This document shows, piece by piece, positions 7,474 to 18,999 of a DNA stretch of 64,000 bases. Origin of the DNA: an uncultured Balneola sp. (lineage in GTDB: Bacteria; Bacteroidota; Rhodothermia; Balneolales; Balneolaceae). Position numbers and translations under genes: made by a program. The DNA lies in assembly GCA_902529115.1 (NCBI GenBank), contig CABZVB010000001.1, positions 186,001 to 250,000 of the forward strand, read 5' to 3'. Position 1 is the first letter of the stretch. Every line of letters begins with the position of its first letter. The notes beneath the pieces are model-generated. The model did no database searches and was not told the DNA's origin. It saw only the letters and a program-made list of their open reading frames with translations.

Positions 7474-10400
7474 ATGGATAAATGGGCAAAATGGTTTAGT
7501 AGAGTATTTGTTTCAACACTATTTTTGATTGTGTCGAACTATGTCTATGCTTCTGGCAATAACACATTTAGTAATTATGAACTACAAGATAGCGCAGTAG
7601 TTCTATTACCAAATAGTTCAGGAATAATTGGTAATAATTTAGTATTTGGATTAGAAATCGATAATGCAACAGGTGCACATCTTAACAGTATACAATTTGG
7701 GTTACATTTTGATACAACAATGGTTGGGATTGATTGGTTTAATCCAGATCAGCAATTTTTAGAGGGTTTTACTTATTTAGTCAATGATTCAATACCTGGT
7801 ATAATTTATTTTTCTGCGATTTCAGCTGGAAACAATTTTTACAATGGGCAAGTAGCTCAGTTGCAGATAGAATTGAAAGCGACTGGAAAAACAAAATTTG
7901 AGATTGAAGATTTACTATTTAATGAAGGCAATCCTCCTGCTTCTTCTTTAGGAGGTAAATTGACAATCTTAGATCCAGATACCATTCCTCCAATGAAACC
8001 TCGTCAGCTTACATCTAAATTAGTAGATGCTAAAACGGTACAGTTAGACTGGGTGACTGGTCAAGACTTAGATCTAAAGGGATATCGGATTTATATGTTT
8101 GAAGGGAACCTTGATACAGAATGGACTGAGGATGAACTAAAAAAACCATGGCATTTAAGTGGAGTTGACTTGATTGATTCACTTATAGTAGATTCACCGG
8201 CTCCTATTAATCAAGCTCTAAGTAAACAAATAAATGAACTAAAAGATTTGACTCACTATCAATTTTGGGTTACGGCATTTGATTCCATTGATAATGAAAG
8301 TCTAGGGGAGTTTATTAATATTAGATCGGGAGATACAGAGCCACCCAAAAAACCTAATTTCTCAATTGTTCAACAAAATGGCTCTCAGGTTTATTTAGAA
8401 TGGACTGCTCAAGAGAATTCCGATATAGAGCAATATGTATTGTATCGTTCTGAAAATCTCTTTTTTAATGGCTTAAAGGAGAATAATATTATACTACAAC
8501 GAGTGACTACGACACCTGGAGATGTAGAAAGAATGGTGTTGTTTAATTGGGATGTAAACACTCAAACTCATCAATTACTCCTAGATAAGCGAGAATTTCC
8601 TGATTCTGTAGATGCATCTTCTATTGATGCGCTCAAGTTGTTAGACATCTATGAAGGACCAATTTCCTACGACAATACTGGATCTGCTTGGATAACCTAT
8701 TATATACCTGAAGAAATAAGTGAATCAGTAATTGAAGCTTCTGACTATGCCGAAAAATTTCGAAAATTAAATGGCGCATACGGAGTAAGTGTTGATATAG
8801 GTTTTGAGAAATTCAGTTCAAATGAAACCTCATTTGAACTAGTAGGAATGTTTGGTCCAGAACAACTCAGTTATACAGATGCTGATATAATTAATAGACA
8901 TTCATACAATTACACTCTAGCTGCAATTGATTCTTCTAATGGCGAACCACTTATTCATTTCGATCCCGCATTGAAAAGTGAATTTTCTGATACTGTAAAT
9001 GTGATTACACCTTTCCTCACATGGCTTGTAAATAAGACTGGAGAAGGTGACTATGAATTTATTCAAGAAGCGATTGATGGTAGTGAACCAGGAGATACCA
9101 TTTCTGTAGATGCCGGGGAATATCAAGAACAACTGAGAATTAGTCACCCTCTAACCTTACGAAATACAGCTCATTTTGAAAAGCCACGCATTATTAAACC
9201 AAATAATGTCGATACTTTAATTGTGTTAGATGCGCAAAAGTTCACTGCTAGTGCTTGGCCTCTCAATCATGGGTTACATTTTTTGGGATTAGACATTTCT
9301 GGAACTAATGATGAAAAAAAATCCGGAGTTGGGATTAGCCTCAATTATGGTACAAGCATGAGGTTAGAAAAGGCATACATTTCCCAATTTAATCAAGCTA
9401 TTACAGGATCTCACAGCTCTTATTCTGTTTACAATTCAATATTTAATGAAAATTTTAATATATCAGGGCATAAAAATCATTTATATGCTTCAACACAAAA
9501 AGAAGACACCATTAAATATGTTCATGTAAATATATTAAATACGGATGGTTATATAACAGATTTAGATGGTGCAATAGATTTTGAATTTCAAAATAGTATT
9601 ATAGCTGACAGGGTAGAGCTCCAAATTGGAGAAAAGGGATTTCAAGGATCAGGAGTTAAATTAATTAATGTTGCCATTGATACTAATTTAGTTAGAACGG
9701 AGCGTGATGAAGTTCAAGTATCACATGTTGAGTTATTAAATAATCAAAATTCTTCTTTAACACATATCAATAATATTGACCAGGTTTTGTTTAAATCATT
9801 AGTCGTGTCTGAAGATTTATCTAATTATCGTCTGCAACCTCAGTCAACGGTTATTGGAAGCGGAAATCCATCTGTTAATATACCGTTCGATTTCTTAGAC
9901 CAAAAAAGAGACTCATATAAAAATGATTTAGGGGCAATAGAACATCCAAATGTTATCCCGGATTTATTTGCGTCTCCTGGTGTAAATATAATGCAAATAG
10001 ATACTAGTTTTAATGATGGTCTTAATTCTGCGGTACAGATTAATATAAATTATCCTGATTCACTCCTTTCAAAACTAGATGCTATTTATTTATCCAAGTG
10101 GTCAAATCAGGATGAACTACTTCAAATTGACACACTAAAGACAGGGACATTTATTGATTTTGATGTGTTTGTAGGCGCAACTTATAGTTACTCTGCTCAA
10201 GCTCGTATGTATGATATATATCTTGGCGACATTTCTGAGAAAGAGACAATATTTATTAATGAAATTGCACCTCCTCTTGATGTAGATCCGCCTACTTCTC
10301 CTATTAATTTAACAGCGAAACGTTTAGATACAAGAATATTTGATTTTGAGTGGAAAGTAGATCCTTTTGATGAACTGTCACACTTCAATATATACAGAAT

Positions 10401-13008
10401 ATTATCGACCGAAGTTATAGTAGAAGCTTTTATAGATACAATAGATGCAACCTGGTTGTGGTCGGGGGGTATTTATCCATTAGATGAATTAAAAAACAAA
10501 TCTATTGAGCTTTTTGACTCTCTATCAATTCCCTTTGAAGCATTTGAACAAGCAAAAAAGGATTCTATTGAGTTACTATTTAACTGGGTTGATGACAAAG
10601 ATCTAAGCATTCAGACTTCATATACCTACTGGGTAACATCTGTTGATTTAGCAGGAAATGAGGGGGACGCACGATTTGTAAAAATACAAACAGGGGATGA
10701 TAAACCTCCAACTCCACCGTCAAATATTATTCAAATCATTCAAGGCGATAAATTAGTACTTGAATGGGAGTCTAGTCCAGATGATGATGTTAAGTGGTAT
10801 AAGATATACAAAGGATTAGATTCAACCGCAGTATCATTATATGACAGTGTAGAAGTGGATGTTAGAATGTTTGAGGATAAGATAACGGATTTTGGTGTCC
10901 AGACATTTTACCGAATAAGTGCAGTGGATTCTTCTATATCGAATCCTTTATTTTCTTTTGATCCGGCACTTGAAGGAGAGCTGTCAGAGTCAACGCCGGG
11001 ATATGTTATCGATATAACAGGCCCATCTAAACCAATCATTGAATCGGTATACAGTGCTAATTCTCTGGTCGAAATTGATTGGGCTTTAATTACAGATCCT
11101 GATCTAGAATATCATAATATATATCGTGGCTCACATCCTGACACTGTAGAAGTTATTGATATTACATCGGCTGGTGACACATTTTATAGTGATTCGACTG
11201 TTGAAAATGGGTTGTTATATTATTATTTCATAAGCGGTGTAGATTCATTATCAAATGAAGGTGATTTATCAGATGTTGTTATTGGAACGCCATATAACAT
11301 TCAACCTTCGGTTGACCCGTATGAGGATTTATACATGCATAATCAAGAAAGTGACCAATTTGAATTTCCTTTTGTTTTTCAAGGATTTGATAATGATGGG
11401 GTAATTGATTCTACCCTTTGGTTAGTTGGTAATGAATTAGTTTCAGATGAAAGAAATCCATCTATTGATATAAGACAAGGATCTAATCATATAACAGTTA
11501 TTGGTATTGACAACGATGGTGCCCGTGACAGTTCTAGCTTTTCGGTTTATGTTGACGCTGGTTTTATTGATTTAGGATCTAATTTAGTTCCAACTAGTGG
11601 GTTATCCATTTTTGGAAATAACTTTAGTTTCCAGCCCGATGGTAGAGGTAATTTAAGTCTGATGACTCCGGAAGAATCAAATGAATTTATTTTAACGGCA
11701 CCATTACAAGCACCTGTAGCTATAGCATCGGATTCCAGTTTTTACTTGTTATCAGGCACTCAGAAACTTAGTAAATATAGTCTATTTAGTTGGTGGAAAC
11801 ATAAAATCACAGTACCCTATTGGTCTTCTTCAACTGGCGGGGTTCATTCAGCTAGCCCAGTAATTGATGAAAAAAGAAAACGACTTTATCTAGCTTCTAT
11901 GGATAATCAGATTTATGGTATTGGCATGGCAGCAGGAATTCAAAAATGGAGTTCCAATTTAGGAGGATCAGGAATACATCCAGGTGTTATTATATCCGAA
12001 AAATATTTAGCCCAACCAAACAAATTAGGGGATATCATCTACTTTGATTTAGATGCTTCAATATCTTTTAAAGAAATGTCGCCGCTCGGTAAAACAATAT
12101 TTGATGATGGCTTATTGGGAGCATTATCTCTAACTAGGGATAATGAATTGGTTGCGGCATTTGCCTCGGGTACCATCAGAAAATGGAGTCCCAATTTATC
12201 TAGTGGAAGTATAGATCAAATAAAATGGGAAACTGATTTAGCCACCGCATTCCAAACAACACCTGTTATTGCTGAAAATGGTTTAATTCTAGTTGGAGGA
12301 TCAGATTCTACTTTTTATGGAATTAATGGAGATAATGGTCAAGTTCAATGGACATATAAAGCGTCAGATTCTATAACATCTACAGCCTCAATAAATGAAT
12401 ATGGGATAATTTATTTTGGTGATGCTTCTGGTGGAGTGTATGCAATAGATGATACTGGCGATTTAATATGGGATTATCAAATTGAAGCTGATGATGATGC
12501 TAGTAGTTTATCAGTCATGAATACTATTAATTATGTTAATGGTAGTGTATTTGTTGCTACACAGGGTGGGAAACTAGTTAGAATCAGGGATGGTTGGCGA
12601 TATGATGGTTCATTTGAAGAGAAGTTTGGTCCGCAATGGGAAGAAAAACAGGCTCAATGGGCTACCTATCAAGGAAATTATCGTAGGAGTGGAAATGTAG
12701 ACATGAGTGTTTCAACTTCAAGTGAAGATATTGAATCATTACCTACTGAATTTAAATTGCTGCAAAACTATCCTAATCCTTTTAATCCCAGTACAAAAAT
12801 TGAATTCTCATTACCGGAAGCCTCATTAGTCAGATTAGAAGTATTTAACACATTAGGCCAAAGAGTCCAGACGCTAAAGAACGAAAAAATGCCTGCTGGA
12901 AAACACAGTGTTACTTTTGAAGCTTTTGATTTAACAACGGGGGTCTATTTGTATAGATTAACTGCAGGAGAGTTTTCACAAATAAATAGAATGCTATTGA
13001 TCAAATAA
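7474..13008 (+). CDS. Giant multidomain T9SS-secreted surface protein (cohesin-like, Fn3, beta-helix, PQQ-like propeller)
   Basis: An 1844-residue exported protein. In order: signal peptide (1-26); cohesin-like beta-sandwich (about 30-165, with VFGLEIDNATGAHLNSIQFG); fibronectin III-like modules (about 170-510), each opened by a DTxPPxxP linker; a right-handed beta-helix segment (about 515-830) beginning YEFIQEAIDG and EPGDTISVDAGEYQEQ; more Fn3-like modules (about 935-1275); an Ig/PKD-like domain with FDNDGVIDS (about 1276-1365); a PQQ-type beta-propeller (about 1385-1730) with repeats such as SASPVIDEKRKRLYLAS and TPVIAENGLILVGGSD; and a T9SS type A sorting domain (about 1760-1844) starting LLQNYPNPFNPSTKIEF. 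It should be exported by Sec, carried across the outer membrane by T9SS and cleaved or anchored there. No catalytic domain is evident, so adhesion or scaffolding is inferred. The next gene, 33 bp downstream, encodes a related T9SS cargo. Confidence 0.85.
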   Translation: MDKWAKWFSRVFVSTLFLIVSNYVYASGNNTFSNYELQDSAVVLLPNSSGIIGNNLVFGLEIDNATGAHLNSIQFGLHFDTTMVGIDWFNPDQQFLEGFTYLVNDSIPGIIYFSAISAGNNFYNGQVAQLQIELKATGKTKFEIEDLLFNEGNPPASSLGGKLTILDPDTIPPMKPRQLTSKLVDAKTVQLDWVTGQDLDLKGYRIYMFEGNLDTEWTEDELKKPWHLSGVDLIDSLIVDSPAPINQALSKQINELKDLTHYQFWVTAFDSIDNESLGEFINIRSGDTEPPKKPNFSIVQQNGSQVYLEWTAQENSDIEQYVLYRSENLFFNGLKENNIILQRVTTTPGDVERMVLFNWDVNTQTHQLLLDKREFPDSVDASSIDALKLLDIYEGPISYDNTGSAWITYYIPEEISESVIEASDYAEKFRKLNGAYGVSVDIGFEKFSSNETSFELVGMFGPEQLSYTDADIINRHSYNYTLAAIDSSNGEPLIHFDPALKSEFSDTVNVITPFLTWLVNKTGEGDYEFIQEAIDGSEPGDTISVDAGEYQEQLRISHPLTLRNTAHFEKPRIIKPNNVDTLIVLDAQKFTASAWPLNHGLHFLGLDISGTNDEKKSGVGISLNYGTSMRLEKAYISQFNQAITGSHSSYSVYNSIFNENFNISGHKNHLYASTQKEDTIKYVHVNILNTDGYITDLDGAIDFEFQNSIIADRVELQIGEKGFQGSGVKLINVAIDTNLVRTERDEVQVSHVELLNNQNSSLTHINNIDQVLFKSLVVSEDLSNYRLQPQSTVIGSGNPSVNIPFDFLDQKRDSYKNDLGAIEHPNVIPDLFASPGVNIMQIDTSFNDGLNSAVQININYPDSLLSKLDAIYLSKWSNQDELLQIDTLKTGTFIDFDVFVGATYSYSAQARMYDIYLGDISEKETIFINEIAPPLDVDPPTSPINLTAKRLDTRIFDFEWKVDPFDELSHFNIYRILSTEVIVEAFIDTIDATWLWSGGIYPLDELKNKSIELFDSLSIPFEAFEQAKKDSIELLFNWVDDKDLSIQTSYTYWVTSVDLAGNEGDARFVKIQTGDDKPPTPPSNIIQIIQGDKLVLEWESSPDDDVKWYKIYKGLDSTAVSLYDSVEVDVRMFEDKITDFGVQTFYRISAVDSSISNPLFSFDPALEGELSESTPGYVIDITGPSKPIIESVYSANSLVEIDWALITDPDLEYHNIYRGSHPDTVEVIDITSAGDTFYSDSTVENGLLYYYFISGVDSLSNEGDLSDVVIGTPYNIQPSVDPYEDLYMHNQESDQFEFPFVFQGFDNDGVIDSTLWLVGNELVSDERNPSIDIRQGSNHITVIGIDNDGARDSSSFSVYVDAGFIDLGSNLVPTSGLSIFGNNFSFQPDGRGNLSLMTPEESNEFILTAPLQAPVAIASDSSFYLLSGTQKLSKYSLFSWWKHKITVPYWSSSTGGVHSASPVIDEKRKRLYLASMDNQIYGIGMAAGIQKWSSNLGGSGIHPGVIISEKYLAQPNKLGDIIYFDLDASISFKEMSPLGKTIFDDGLLGALSLTRDNELVAAFASGTIRKWSPNLSSGSIDQIKWETDLATAFQTTPVIAENGLILVGGSDSTFYGINGDNGQVQWTYKASDSITSTASINEYGIIYFGDASGGVYAIDDTGDLIWDYQIEADDDASSLSVMNTINYVNGSVFVATQGGKLVRIRDGWRYDGSFEEKFGPQWEEKQAQWATYQGNYRRSGNVDMSVSTSSEDIESLPTEFKLLQNYPNPFNPSTKIEFSLPEASLVRLEVFNTLGQRVQTLKNEKMPAGKHSVTFEAFDLTTGVYLYRLTAGEFSQINRMLLIK

Positions 13009-13041: not shown

Positions 13042-16000
13042 ATGCCATTATATATGAAAAGTCTTTTATTTTTGATAATGGTTATTCCAAAAACCATAAT
13101 TGCTCAAAATACTGGAGTAGTCTACTTATTAAATCACCAGGGTGAAGAAGTATTTAATTATCCACCAGGTCAGGCAGTTGTTCATATAGGGTTGACAGAT
13201 GCTGATAATCCAAATGATGTTCACCTGCGCATAGGTTCATCGGATGATACGGTTATGGTAGCTATGACCCGGATTTCTCCTGGTGAATATACTGGAACGG
13301 TTACCTTGGAGGAGTACGCATCAGGCAGCGTTGATCTTGGAGATGCTATTCTTCAAGCTAGACGCGGTTCTTTACTTACGGTAATTTATGATGATGAGTC
13401 GGATAGTTTTGGAAACCCTAAGCGGGTAGAAGACCATGCATATTATGGGATGACGCTGGTAAGTGGAGTGTATGATAGTGATCATACATGGGCAAAGGAT
13501 AACAGCCCTTATTTGGTGACTGGAGATATTGATGTAAAAAATGGAGCTCGGTTGACGATAGAGCCGGGAGTAGAAATATTATTTACAGCTCCGACTTTTG
13601 GGGTTACCGGAGATGATCGTGCGGGGGGCCGAGATGATACTCGATCTGAATTAAGGATTGTTGAAGGTTCTACTTTGCATGCAGTAGGGACGTTTGAAGA
13701 AAAAATTATATTTCGATCAAGCAGGGAAAGACAGGAAGAAATAGATAGAGATTGGTGGGGTATATTTGCAGAGAGCGGTCCAAAAATTCGTTTAGAACAC
13801 GCGAAGGTATCAGGTAGTTATTATGGACTATATTTTCAGGATCTAGGTGGGTCTAAAACAGACACCATGTATATACGTCATAATATTTTTGAAAACATAG
13901 GCGAAGCAGCTATTCGTACGGAATGGATATCTTGGGAAACAAATACAGATGTCAGCCATAATATATTAGATGGAGGTATACAGATTGATGGCATGTATGA
14001 TAGTTGGAATGATGATAATTTAGTGTCAGTAAAAATAGCCAACAATGATTTTAGTGACGATCAATTTTATCTAAATACAGATGGTGATAATAGACACAAT
14101 GACTATAAGATAATATTCCGAGGGAACCGTAATTTATGGACTACTCGATTCTATCGCCCGAAACGAGTTATAAGTGAAGACAATGAAGTAAGCGGGAGAT
14201 ATGAAGTAGGTTATATTGGAGATTTTAGTTCTAGAAGTGACAGTTTAGTACGGAATGAAGGAGCTGAGGCTTATACAGGCTGGTCATTAAATCACGTATC
14301 GAAAGCTAGCATTAGCCGGTCATATGTAACAGGGTATGGTACAGGGGTTAGTATATATTCGTCCGCTGTGAAAATAGATAGCAGTAGTATTATCGAGAAT
14401 GATAATACAGGTATAAATATATCCTCAGATTTTGATTATGGTTCGAGGATAACGGTTATAGAGCATTCTACGATTACGGGCAATGATGGGGATGGGATAA
14501 CATTAAGAGAGTATGGTCAGGTGATCGCTAATTACAATAATTTGTATGGAAACGGAGGTCCTGAGTTTAGTAACCAAGCAGCTCACACTAATGAGATTAA
14601 TGCCCGGTTTAATTGGTGGGGTGATGAGGCTACTGCCCAGATGAATGAAGGAAAGAACCCAAAGAATATTGATGAGATTTATGATGAATATGACGATGCA
14701 TCAAAAGGTTTTGTGAATTATTCAGATTGGTTGGATGCTCAAAATGGTACACCATCACAAGATCTAGGCAATACAGGTGAGATATATTTGGTCAATGACC
14801 AAGGTGAAGAGGTATTAAATTATTCATTAGATCAAACAATAATTTATGTTGGCTTAACTGATCCGGATAATCTTAAGTATACTACTGTTCGCATAGGTTC
14901 ATCGGATGATACGGTTATGGTAGCTATGACCCGGATTTCTCCTGGTGAATATACTGGAACGGTTACCTTGGAGGAGTACGCATCAGGCAGCGTTGATCTT
15001 GGAGATGCTATTCTTCAAGCTAGACGCGGTTCTTTACTTACGGTAATTTATGATGATGAGTCGGATAGTTTTGGAAACCCTAAGCGGGTAGAAGACCATG
15101 CATATTATGGGATGACGCTGGTAAGTGGAGTGTATGATAGTGATCATACATGGGCAAAGGATAACAGCCCTTATTTGGTGACTGGAGATATTGATGCAAA
15201 AAATGGAGCTCGGTTGACGATAGAGCCGGGAGTAGAAATATTATTTACAGCTCCGACTTTTGGGGTTACCGGAGATGATCGTGCGGGGGGCCGAGATGAT
15301 ACTCGATCTGAATTAAGGATTGTTGAAGGTTCTACTTTGCATGCAGTAGGGACGTTTGAAGAAAAAATTATATTTCGATCAAGCAGGGAAAGACAGGAAG
15401 AAATAGATAGAGATTGGTGGGGTATATTTGCAGAGAGCGGTCCAAAAATTCGTTTAGAACACGCGAAGGTATCAGGTAGTTATTATGGACTATATTTTCA
15501 GGATCTAGGTGGGTCTAAAACAGACACCATGTATATACGTCATAATATTTTTGAAAACATAGGCGAAGCAGCTATTCGTACGGAATGGATATCTTGGGAA
15601 ACAAATACAGATGTCAGCCATAATATATTAGATGGAGGTATACAGATTGATGGCATGTATGATAGTTGGAATGATGATAATTTAGTGTCAGTAAAAATAG
15701 CCAACAATGATTTTAGTGACGATCAATTTTATCTAAATACAGATGGTGATAATAGACACAATGACTATAAGATAATATTCCGAGGGAACCGTAATTTATG
15801 GACTACTCGATTCTATCGCCCGAAACGAGTTATAAGTGAAGACAATGAAGTAAGCGGGAGATATGAAGTAGGTTATATTGGAGATTTTAGTTCTAGAAGT
15901 GACAGTTTAGTACGGAATGAAGGAGCTGAGGCTTATACAGGCTGGTCATTAAATCACGTATCGAAAGCTAGCATTAGCCGGTCATATGTAACAGGGTATG

Positions 16001-17286
16001 GTACAGGGGTTAGTATATATTCGTCCGCTGTGAAAATAGATAGCAGTAGTATTATCGAGAATGATAATACAGGTATAAATATATCCTCAGATTTTGATTA
16101 TGGTTCGAGGATAACGGTTATAGAGCATTCTACGATTACGGGCAATGATGGGGATGGGATAACATTAAGAGAGTATGGTCAGGTGATCGCTAATTACAAT
16201 AATTTGTATGGAAACGGAGGTCCTGAGTTTAGTAACCAAGCAGCTCACACTAATGAGATTAATGCCCGGTTTAATTGGTGGGGTGATGAGGCTACTGCCC
16301 AGATGAATGAAGGAAAGAACCCAAAGAATATTGATGAGATTTATGATGAATATGACGATGCATCAAAAGGTTTTGTGAATTACTCTGGATGGCTCGATGA
16401 TAAAGATGGCACTCCATCGCTTGTATGTGGTGATGTAACAGGAGATTATTTTGTTTCTGCCTTAGATGGCTCTTTTATTTTACGTCATTCGGTAAGAATG
16501 GCACCACAGTACCCTCTTATAGGAAGGGATTCAACAGCTGCTGATGTTACGGGTAATGGTTTTGTATCAGCATATGATGCAGCAACAGTTTTAAAATATA
16601 TAGTTGGCTTACCTGTGACGTTAAATTGTGATGGGAATAGTAATGCATTAAAGGATATACAGAAACCCCTGATTACATGGTCACCAAAAATTTCAGAGGG
16701 TCAAGATATACTTACTATACCAATCAATATATCGAATATTAATGCTGGTATAAATTCTATTGAAATTGAAATACCGCATAAAAATAGTATTCGTTTAAGC
16801 TCAATTTCTCAAAAACCAGATAACTGGGAAATACTAGAACATACTACAGATCAATTTCTAAATATAGCTATGTATGGTATGGATGAGTTACGCGATGACT
16901 TTACATTAGAATTATATTTTGAAATCCTTGAACCAAAACCAAATGTAAACTTTACGGGTACTATTCGGGTGAATGAATATTCAAAAATATCTATGGAGCC
17001 GTATAATTTGGATATTATACCCAAGGTGTTCGAATTATATCAAAATTATCCTAATCCATTTAATCCTAGTACTCAAATCGATTTTTCTCTTCCTGAATCT
17101 GCAAATATTCAATTAGAGATTTACAATATTTTAGGTCAAAAAGTGCGAACGCTTAAAAATGAGCGAATGGCGCCAGGATATTATAGTATAACTTTTGAAG
17201 CAAATAGCTTATCAAGTGGGGTATACATTTATCAGTTAAAAATGGGTAATAAGGTTATTACTAAAAGAATGTTACTATTGAAATAA
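13042..17286 (+). CDS. T9SS-secreted duplicated beta-helix protein with dockerin and cohesin-like domains
   Basis: A 1414-residue exported protein with signal peptide ending IIAQ. Residues 23-576 and 577 to about 1128 are two copies of one 554-residue unit: a short beta domain (YLLNHQGEEV / YLVNDQGEEV), then a parallel beta-helix region with the typical GARLTIEPGVEILF and TGNDGDGI turns. Next comes a dockerin-like pair (about 1128-1196): DVTGDYFVSALDGS and DVTGNGFVSAYDAA, each a calcium-loop motif; then a cohesin-like domain (about 1210-1322), and a T9SS sorting domain beginning ELYQNYPNPFNPSTQ (about 1326-1414). The two units are almost identical at DNA level. It lies 33 bp after the giant cohesin-like protein and is followed by a strong terminator, so the two are probably one transcription unit. 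A non-cellulosomal cohesin-dockerin link between the two proteins is possible but unproven. Confidence 0.85.
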   Translation: MPLYMKSLLFLIMVIPKTIIAQNTGVVYLLNHQGEEVFNYPPGQAVVHIGLTDADNPNDVHLRIGSSDDTVMVAMTRISPGEYTGTVTLEEYASGSVDLGDAILQARRGSLLTVIYDDESDSFGNPKRVEDHAYYGMTLVSGVYDSDHTWAKDNSPYLVTGDIDVKNGARLTIEPGVEILFTAPTFGVTGDDRAGGRDDTRSELRIVEGSTLHAVGTFEEKIIFRSSRERQEEIDRDWWGIFAESGPKIRLEHAKVSGSYYGLYFQDLGGSKTDTMYIRHNIFENIGEAAIRTEWISWETNTDVSHNILDGGIQIDGMYDSWNDDNLVSVKIANNDFSDDQFYLNTDGDNRHNDYKIIFRGNRNLWTTRFYRPKRVISEDNEVSGRYEVGYIGDFSSRSDSLVRNEGAEAYTGWSLNHVSKASISRSYVTGYGTGVSIYSSAVKIDSSSIIENDNTGINISSDFDYGSRITVIEHSTITGNDGDGITLREYGQVIANYNNLYGNGGPEFSNQAAHTNEINARFNWWGDEATAQMNEGKNPKNIDEIYDEYDDASKGFVNYSDWLDAQNGTPSQDLGNTGEIYLVNDQGEEVLNYSLDQTIIYVGLTDPDNLKYTTVRIGSSDDTVMVAMTRISPGEYTGTVTLEEYASGSVDLGDAILQARRGSLLTVIYDDESDSFGNPKRVEDHAYYGMTLVSGVYDSDHTWAKDNSPYLVTGDIDAKNGARLTIEPGVEILFTAPTFGVTGDDRAGGRDDTRSELRIVEGSTLHAVGTFEEKIIFRSSRERQEEIDRDWWGIFAESGPKIRLEHAKVSGSYYGLYFQDLGGSKTDTMYIRHNIFENIGEAAIRTEWISWETNTDVSHNILDGGIQIDGMYDSWNDDNLVSVKIANNDFSDDQFYLNTDGDNRHNDYKIIFRGNRNLWTTRFYRPKRVISEDNEVSGRYEVGYIGDFSSRSDSLVRNEGAEAYTGWSLNHVSKASISRSYVTGYGTGVSIYSSAVKIDSSSIIENDNTGINISSDFDYGSRITVIEHSTITGNDGDGITLREYGQVIANYNNLYGNGGPEFSNQAAHTNEINARFNWWGDEATAQMNEGKNPKNIDEIYDEYDDASKGFVNYSGWLDDKDGTPSLVCGDVTGDYFVSALDGSFILRHSVRMAPQYPLIGRDSTAADVTGNGFVSAYDAATVLKYIVGLPVTLNCDGNSNALKDIQKPLITWSPKISEGQDILTIPINISNINAGINSIEIEIPHKNSIRLSSISQKPDNWEILEHTTDQFLNIAMYGMDELRDDFTLELYFEILEPKPNVNFTGTIRVNEYSKISMEPYNLDIIPKVFELYQNYPNPFNPSTQIDFSLPESANIQLEIYNILGQKVRTLKNERMAPGYYSITFEANSLSSGVYIYQLKMGNKVITKRMLLLK
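13108..14769 (+). repeat. Tandem repeat unit 1 (1662 bp) within the beta-helix surface-protein gene
   Basis: First of two in-frame 1662-bp units. Bases 13228-14720 match 14890-16382 at every position I compared except one (T13535 versus C15197, Val to Ala). The leading 120 bases (13108-13227) are clearly diverged from those of unit 2 yet still alignable without gaps. Confidence 0.95.
14770..16431 (+). repeat. Tandem repeat unit 2 (1662 bp) within the beta-helix surface-protein gene
   Basis: Second unit, in frame and offset by exactly 1662 bases from the first. The near-identical core is 14890-16382; after that the sequence drifts (GWLDDKDGTPS versus DWLDAQNGTPS) and passes into the dockerin domain at about 16420. 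Confidence 0.95.
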
Positions 17287-17595: not shown

Positions 17596-18999
17596 TTAAA
17601 AGAATTTTTTAAGCCACTTCAATTTATCGGTATAGGGTGGATAGCGAAGAGGAATATCGAAAAAATAATTTTTCTTCATTATACTCTTGATATGAGAAAA
17701 AGTTTCAAAACTAGATTTACCATGATAGGCGCCTATGCCACTAGTAGCAATGCCTCCAAATGGTAAATTTGGATTACCAAGATGTGCTATGGTATCATTG
17801 ATTGCACCACCGCCGTATTTCAATTTTGTATTGAAATATTTTTGAAAATTTATATCGTTGGAAAATAAATAACAGGCCAAAGGCAGAGCATTTTTTTCAA
17901 TAATTTTTGCAATCTCATCTCTTTTTTCGAAAGTAAGTATTGGTAATATCGGGCCAAATATTTCTTCTTGCATAAGTGGGTGATTCATGTCAATTCCTCT
18001 AACAACGGTTGGGCTTATATATTTTTCTCTCATATTAATATTACCACCGATTACAATATCTATATTGTTTATTGCCTGTGTTTGCTTATTGGAGCCTTTA
18101 AGTAACTTGTGTAAACGTTTTACATGCTTCTCTGATACAATTCTTGAGTAGTCTGGACTATGTTCAGGTGATACTCCATAAAATTTTGTGATTACCTTTT
18201 TCAGGCATTCTATAAATTTTTTTTCTACATCCTTATGCACTATAATATAGTCAGGAGCAACACAAGTTTGGCCCGCATTCAAATATTTCCCCCAAGCAAT
18301 ACGTTTTGCGCTCACTTTTAGGTTAGCATTTTTATCTACAATACACGGGCTTTTCCCGCCTAACTCAAGGGTGCAAGGGATTAACCTTGATCCGGCACTT
18401 TTCCCGATAATTCTACCTACCTTTGTACTACCTGTAAAAAAGATGTAATCAAGGTCTAGATTCACTAGTGTGGAACTAATAGTGTGATCTCCTATTATCA
18501 CAGCAATATATTCAGGGTCAAAAAATTCTTCGATCATTTTTTTTAATACCTCTGCAACATTGGGCGCCCATTCTGAAGGCTTTAATAGTACAGTATTTCC
18601 AGCCGCTATAGCGCCAATGATTGGATTAAGACATAATTGAACAGGGTAGTTCCATGGTCCAATAACTAGACTAACCCCATAAGGTACTGCTAAGCTATAA
18701 TTTTTTGATGGGAAATTGATTAGCACGTCTGGATGTTTCTTAGGGCGCATCCATTTTTTTAAATTTCTCCGAATATAGCGGAGTTCTGTTTTGACCAAGG
18801 CGATTTCAGAACCGTACGCTTCAAATGTAGATTTTCCTAAATCATCTGATAATGCATTGATTAATTCATTTTCATAGGTATTTATAGCATGTTCAAGGCG
18901 ATTGAGTGAATCCTTACGAAATATATACTCCAAAGTGACATGTGTGTTGAAAAAGCGTTGCTGTTTTTCAAATACTGAATGTATTGTTTGTGTTGACAT
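17596..18999 (-). CDS. Aldehyde dehydrogenase, class 3 / fatty-aldehyde type
   Basis: A 467-residue cytosolic NAD(P)-dependent aldehyde dehydrogenase that oxidises aldehydes to acids. Visible landmarks are IGPWNYP (113-119), the cofactor loop FFTGSTKVG (187-195), the general base Glu212 in LELGGKSP, and the catalytic nucleophile Cys246 in NAGQTCVAPDY. The short length and a C-terminal YPPYTDKLKWLKKFF helix match the class 3 and fatty/coniferyl-aldehyde branch (AlkH or ALDH3-like), which has a hydrophobic tail, rather than the 490-500 residue betaine/acetaldehyde type. The start at 18999 is an ATG with the family's usual N-terminal length. It stands alone on the minus strand with about 220 bp upstream, so it likely has its own promoter. 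The aldehyde substrate is unknown; medium- to long-chain aldehydes are likeliest. Confidence 0.92.
   Translation of the reverse strand: MSTQTIHSVFEKQQRFFNTHVTLEYIFRKDSLNRLEHAINTYENELINALSDDLGKSTFEAYGSEIALVKTELRYIRRNLKKWMRPKKHPDVLINFPSKNYSLAVPYGVSLVIGPWNYPVQLCLNPIIGAIAAGNTVLLKPSEWAPNVAEVLKKMIEEFFDPEYIAVIIGDHTISSTLVNLDLDYIFFTGSTKVGRIIGKSAGSRLIPCTLELGGKSPCIVDKNANLKVSAKRIAWGKYLNAGQTCVAPDYIIVHKDVEKKFIECLKKVITKFYGVSPEHSPDYSRIVSEKHVKRLHKLLKGSNKQTQAINNIDIVIGGNINMREKYISPTVVRGIDMNHPLMQEEIFGPILPILTFEKRDEIAKIIEKNALPLACYLFSNDINFQKYFNTKLKYGGGAINDTIAHLGNPNLPFGGIATSGIGAYHGKSSFETFSHIKSIMKKNYFFDIPLRYPPYTDKLKWLKKFF

Follow-up and report, generated by a model that had tools for sequence, protein, structure and literature searches.

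Probable concerted evolution of a tandem in-gene duplication in a putative secreted beta-helix protein of an uncultured Balneola sp.

Within bacterial genomes, gene conversion occurs between the members of the tuf gene pair, and at vlsE of Borrelia sequence is reportedly copied between homologous stretches of one genome. Inside single genes, the tandem repeats of the aciniform spidroin AcSp1 of Argiope spiders are reported to be more than 98% alike in DNA, and intragenic concerted evolution has been proposed for them (PMC3933166); for the Periscope Proteins, length change by recombination between near-identical repeats has been proposed (PMC8201768). The gene considered here lies in a 64,000-nt stretch (the window) of contig CABZVB010000001.1, from an uncultured Balneola sp. 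It is a single open reading frame (ORF; 13042-17286, 1414 aa) that includes two tandem units with nearly identical cores and diverged edges. Very probably, the duplication is older than the split between two congeneric species, and the cores have since been homogenised by recombination between direct repeats, independently in each lineage. The parts of the gene on which this reading turns are, in window coordinates:

13042-17286, + strand: ORF of 1414 aa, with a leader, two units, a dockerin type I domain, a further domain, and a type IX secretion system (T9SS) sorting tail
13108-13227, + strand: diverged leading edge of unit 1; 42/120 differences from the unit 2 edge, and groups by position with the ortholog
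13228-14720, + strand: putatively homogenised core of unit 1 (rest of the N-terminal domain and right-handed beta-helix); 1 mismatch in 1493, with PF13229 and fold as evidence
13535, + strand: the sole core mismatch, T here (C at 15197)
14721-14769, + strand: diverged trailing edge of unit 1; 20/49 differences
14770-14889, + strand: diverged leading edge of unit 2, from comparison with unit 1 and the ortholog
14890-16382, + strand: putatively homogenised core of unit 2, from comparison with core 1
16383-16431, + strand: diverged trailing edge of unit 2, from comparison with unit 1

The initial annotation described two in-frame units that align without gaps, and a 1493-bp core with a single mismatch, T13535/C15197. 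Recomputation reproduced this exactly: at an offset of 1662 bp, the core copies (13228-14720 and 14890-16382) differ only at that position, a Val to Ala change, leaving longest exact runs of 307 and 1185 bp. Pairwise nucleotide comparison, which had been put forward as a check, found the core copies not to differ at many positions. The leading edges (13108-13227 and 14770-14889), said to differ at about a third of positions, do so at 42 of 120; the trailing edges (14721-14769 and 16383-16431) have diverged too, at 20 of 49. The core match is far beyond chance, since only one other self-match in the window reaches E ≤ 1e-5, a 162-bp stretch at 70% in which the sorting-tail codons of this gene resemble those of the gene upstream. 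Tandem Repeats Finder, whose longest period is 500, returned no rows for the window.

What the two units have undergone can be read from a second copy of the gene. Nine genomes of the genus were compared, including the window's own (G000); the complete two-unit gene is found in just two of these, G000 and G003, at 1414 aa in both. G003 is identical in the compared stretch to CABZWK010000003.1, NODE_3 (MAG: uncultured Balneola sp. isolate AG-896-N14), which from the isolate name we take to be a single-cell genome. The four units are called A1 and A2 (G000) and B1 and B2 (G003) below, with gene coordinates in which position 1 is 13042.

In the edges (61-156 and 1680-1725), 40 of 42 informative sites group by position (A1 with B1, A2 with B2); the other two are split between grouping by genome and crosswise grouping. 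Every one of the 263 informative sites in the core (187-1609) groups by genome, as do four more in 157-186 and 1610-1679. With edges sorting by position and cores by genome, there is strong support for a duplication that predates the split of the two congeneric species, with cores that would have been equalised later and separately in each lineage. Between the genomes, 272 of the 1493 core positions differ; within them, the two cores differ at one position (G000) or six (G003, all in the last 70 bp); over 1453 bp the G003 cores are mutually identical. The tract ends are also unlike: 187-1679 in G000, 157-1609 in G003. At position 13535 both copies of the G003 ortholog have T, so the C at 15197 is probably the derived state.

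A near-identical core, taken by itself, would also be expected from a recent simple tandem duplication in G000 alone, with fast divergence of the edges afterwards. However, the unit-specific edges are common by position to G000 and G003 and are almost saturated with synonymous change (proportion of synonymous differences, pS, 0.72); this rules out a recent simple duplication, to which next to no credence can be given. The initial annotation had itself favoured recent homogenisation of an old duplication, and edges apparently older than the species split, together with cores apparently equalised separately, bear it out. Nor does core identity appear to reflect protein-level selection alone, because it extends to synonymous sites: the G000 copies have zero synonymous differences on about 315 synonymous sites, their sole mismatch being the one that changes an amino acid. 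As an upper bound, and if the sequences are exact, the time since the last event in G000 corresponds to a synonymous divergence (dS) of about 0.01 (3/315, calculated by hand), against 0.28 in the tail between G000 and G003.

As a mechanism, duplication before the split would have given two tandem units, and homologous recombination between these direct repeats would then have copied one core over the other, independently in each lineage, with the short outer edges escaping. The route would be gene conversion, or two unequal crossovers between sister chromosomes with the same effect; a new or imported variant in one core would spread to the other, and the pair would change together. RecA-type recombination is presumed, as are its direction and rate. 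Bases 157-186 of G003 unit 2 are equal to those of unit 1, so copying from unit 1 to unit 2 is suggested there.

Gene conversion or unequal crossing over had both been offered in the initial annotation. Homogenisation itself stands, but the two routes leave the same pattern. Within the concerted-evolution account gene conversion is the simplest and probably the correct one, because the edges and the unit number appear unchanged. By the other route, expansion to three units and subsequent contraction would have replaced a core, and the two units seen now would be the present state of a drifting array. Two crossovers would yield the same final pattern as conversion, a unit of 1662 (3 × 554) bases could be gained or lost without leaving the frame, and a gene loss at the sorting tails in another genome (G006, see below) points to recombination between direct repeats at this locus. 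Against this, the two full genes agree in unit number (two) and in length (1414 aa), although a short-read graph gives no count of the units, and two events are required for each round; unequal crossing over is the main rival but on balance rather unlikely. The expansion or contraction that the initial annotation envisaged is plausible as far as the in-frame unit goes, but among the genomes compared none had a different unit number at this locus.

An assembly artefact is the other explanation to be considered: a short-read assembler might have merged moderately different cores, or walked a loop once. The ortholog contig is named NODE_3, presumably in the SPAdes style, and in the loop and bulge handling of SPAdes small differences between copies may be merged. 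For the G003 gene, one extra repeat loop leaves the k-mer set unchanged at all six k tested, from 55 to 500. If the assemblies are short-read, the unit number is therefore a lower bound, at least two, because a tandem repeat this long is one loop in a short-read graph. However, grouping of 263/263 core sites by genome together with position-specific edges in two genomes could not be produced in this way, and cores as unlike as the edges would have assembled without trouble; an artefact would account for no more than small differences hidden between the copies and doubt about the number of units. An artefact is thus quite improbable as the source of the pattern, and the main conclusion holds despite possible merging of small differences, because an assembler would not merge cores that differ as much as the edges do. 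The concern about assembly error raised in the initial annotation is largely answered as to whether there are two units whose cores are nearly identical, for which a pure artefact is rejected, because a second genome with a different core sequence and different tract ends has the same arrangement; it stands as to the exact unit number and differences of about 1%.

Contigs of two further genomes break off close to the core. In G004, the tail is on a contig starting at the equivalent of 16387, five bases past the core; in G005, the tail contig starts near the core end, and the leader is on a separate contig, which breaks off shortly after entering the leader side of the core. One published single-cell pipeline, in the part of its description considered here, uses SPAdes with the options --careful --sc, trims 100 bp off contig ends and keeps contigs of more than 2000 bp (PMC5519541). 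Such a pipeline, which we infer may have been used for these genomes, would discard a collapsed 1.5-kb core, fitting the G004 and G005 breaks. Short-read genomes can thus drop or miscount genes of this kind: in two of the nine (G004 and G005), contigs stop near the repeat edges.

Several points nevertheless weigh against the concerted-evolution account or parts of it. If the assemblies are short-read, the two copies of a core are read from a single graph path, so that identity is forced and a difference of about 1% would be hidden; the G004 and G005 contig breaks could have other causes; both units are complete in two genomes only; the hint at a copying direction comes from one end in a single genome; and the N-terminal domain of the unit is poorly modelled by AlphaFold2 (pLDDT <50 over residues 17-113).

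Divergence between the two genomes is not even along the core, but is raised in one segment of 720 bp:

13522-14241, + strand (second copy 15184-15903): core segment with raised interspecies divergence, in both copies; dS 0.98

Over this segment (gene positions 481-1200) dS is 0.98 between the genomes, and in the rest of the core 0.22-0.33. Synonymous changes number 82 on 150 sites in the segment vs. 39 on 165 in the rest of the core (Fisher p 2e-8). The ratio of nonsynonymous to synonymous divergence (dN/dS) in the segment is 0.23, with no sign of overall positive selection, and within each genome the diverged segment is common to both copies. The variable residues in the middle of the core are not concentrated in loops (34/104 in loops vs. 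52/136 in strands, p 0.42), leaving loop-directed diversification unsupported.

Either of two origins could account for the segment: a diverged import followed by copying to the other unit, or two ancestral versions sorted differently. The second amounts to a variant of concerted evolution in which conversion ran in opposite directions, from an ancestor with two different core middles of which the lineages kept different ones. It would explain the dS of 0.98 without an outside import; the segment ends are sharp, with normal divergence on either side, and position-specific differences do persist in the edges. But no genome still carrying two different core middles was found among those compared, and the data fit the import of a diverged allele by one lineage just as well, so that opposite-direction conversion can be entertained only tentatively. 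A decayed remnant of the gene in G007 is closer in this segment to G000 (88.8%) than to G003 (73.9%), but this is not decisive because G007, as its neighbouring genes indicate, belongs to the G000 side.

More speculatively, the gene might encode a paired-cassette surface protein, in which a diverged 720-bp beta-helix segment enters one unit, through import or through adoption of the version in the other unit, conversion installs it in the second, and both beta-helices switch specificity together. This is doubtful; if it were true, the conserved flanks of the segment would guide recombination, and homogenisation would be kept because both units need the same binding surface.

The predicted protein has a 22-residue leader that resembles a signal peptide (by eye), followed by the two units of 554 aa, each consisting of a small N-terminal domain and a right-handed beta-helix. 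Beyond unit 2, a dockerin type I domain is followed by another domain, cohesin-like in appearance (by eye), and then by the sorting tail. The two C-terminal domains identified by profile are:

16429-16602, + strand: dockerin type I domain, aa 1130-1187 (PF00404, 28.6 bits, cut-off 22.9)
17047-17271, + strand: T9SS type A sorting domain, aa 1336-1410 (PF18962, TIGR04183)

Beta_helix (PF13229) matches two stretches, the better at 416-517, and the C-terminal sorting domain scores 45.5 bits with TIGR04183 (cut-off 23). SprA (TIGR04189), the T9SS component searched for in the genome, is present at 1467 bits (cut-off 200) and was found in none of 14 control genomes. A secreted T9SS protein, presumably located at the surface, seems likely. 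AlphaFold2 models a beta-helix over about residues 114-500 of the unit; by eye only, the N-terminal domain looks Ig-like. The nearest solved folds (Z 20-27) are phage tailspikes, alginate epimerases, lyases, and surface adhesins, although Foldseek gave just two matches at E ≤ 0.001, a sequence search against solved structures gave none, and the Pfam matches include no catalytic family. The fold predicted for each unit is thus the one found in phage tailspikes, alginate epimerases and lyases, and the adhesin PfbA, but at 7-15% identity only, and a common fold shows no function; a polysaccharide-binding or adhesive role may be suggested from the model. The dockerin type I domain (PF00404) is a further point of likeness, to cellulosome-type dockerin proteins.

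Elsewhere in the genus the gene is decayed or missing. The G007 remnant has in-frame stops and two deletions, both with short overlaps (8 and 10 bases) at their ends. In G001 and G002 the upstream neighbour is followed by an aldehyde dehydrogenase gene, with no match to the window gene between them; in G008 neither a unit nor an ortholog of the upstream neighbour was found. Across the family, 22 of 92 genomes match the unit profile somewhere, mostly over a short stretch. Single-unit genes occur in G079 (967 aa) and in one Rhodothermales bin, so one unit is probably the ancestral state. A scan of viral contigs gave no relative, and a viral origin of the gene was rejected. A protein in G002 (L054, G002:C73) has several more beta-helix-like stretches, weakly related to the unit, and may belong to the same secreted family.

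G006 also lacks the window gene, and has a fused version of its upstream neighbour instead. In the window this neighbour is:

7474-13008, + strand: upstream neighbour, 1844 aa, with sorting tail; putative recombination partner in the G006 gene loss

In G000, the two sorting tails form the repeat at 12763-12923 and 17041-17201 (162 bp, 70% alike). The G006 upstream gene (L064, G006:C59) resembles its G000 ortholog up to a QNYPNPFNP motif and from there on the tail of the window gene; the chimera lies around 8214-8501, to be compared with window 12763-13008 and 17041-17286. Since it switches to the window gene's own tail, G006 appears to have lost that gene, the simplest route being recombination between the sorting tails of the two genes. 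The G001 and G002 neighbours, too, have a final tail resembling the window gene's (by eye), and there the change could have run either way. Matches to the protein in the genome number 39, nearly all in the tail, and recombination of sorting tails may be a general way for genes to be lost or fused.

The upstream protein is itself 59% identical to its G003 counterpart overall, with neighbours at 83-87%; taken in windows of 100 columns, identity is 27-49% in the first eight and 71-86% for columns 1200 to 1900. By this comparison it would be a second highly variable secreted protein adjoining the window gene. Downstream, the aldehyde dehydrogenase (17596-18999) is 93-94% identical in G006 and G007 and about 60-62% in G001, G002, G003, G004, and G005, as if two different versions occupied the same place.

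Intragenic concerted evolution is a known process, of which this gene appears to be a new instance. In the literature covered, which was partial, no bacterial case of exactly this kind was recognised, and no claim to a first report is made. As in AcSp1, tandem in-gene repeats have near-identical DNA within the gene; but AcSp1, going by the parts of its description considered here, has many copies, in a eukaryote, with limited repeat variation between species, and the window gene, which is bacterial, has two 1.66-kb units whose cores differ by 18% from one species to the other. With the Periscope Proteins, as far as the portion of their description used here goes, it shares folded domains that stand in tandem and are highly identical in DNA, in what is predicted to be a bacterial surface protein. 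The units here, however, are two and large, each with a beta-helix; unit 1 starts 22 residues past the start codon, leaving no separate N-terminal ligand-binding domain; and repeat number, which in the Periscope class would vary between strains, is two in both full orthologs. The class was therefore not applied to a protein without a separate N-terminal domain and with no length variation seen in two orthologs. In contrast to vlsE and tuf, donor and acceptor lie in one reading frame, with no silent cassettes, and the outcome is equalisation rather than variation. The locus appears to offer a clear case of the process, backed by a test that sorts sites by position or by genome, in a predicted T9SS-exported beta-helix protein of an uncultured marine bacterium.

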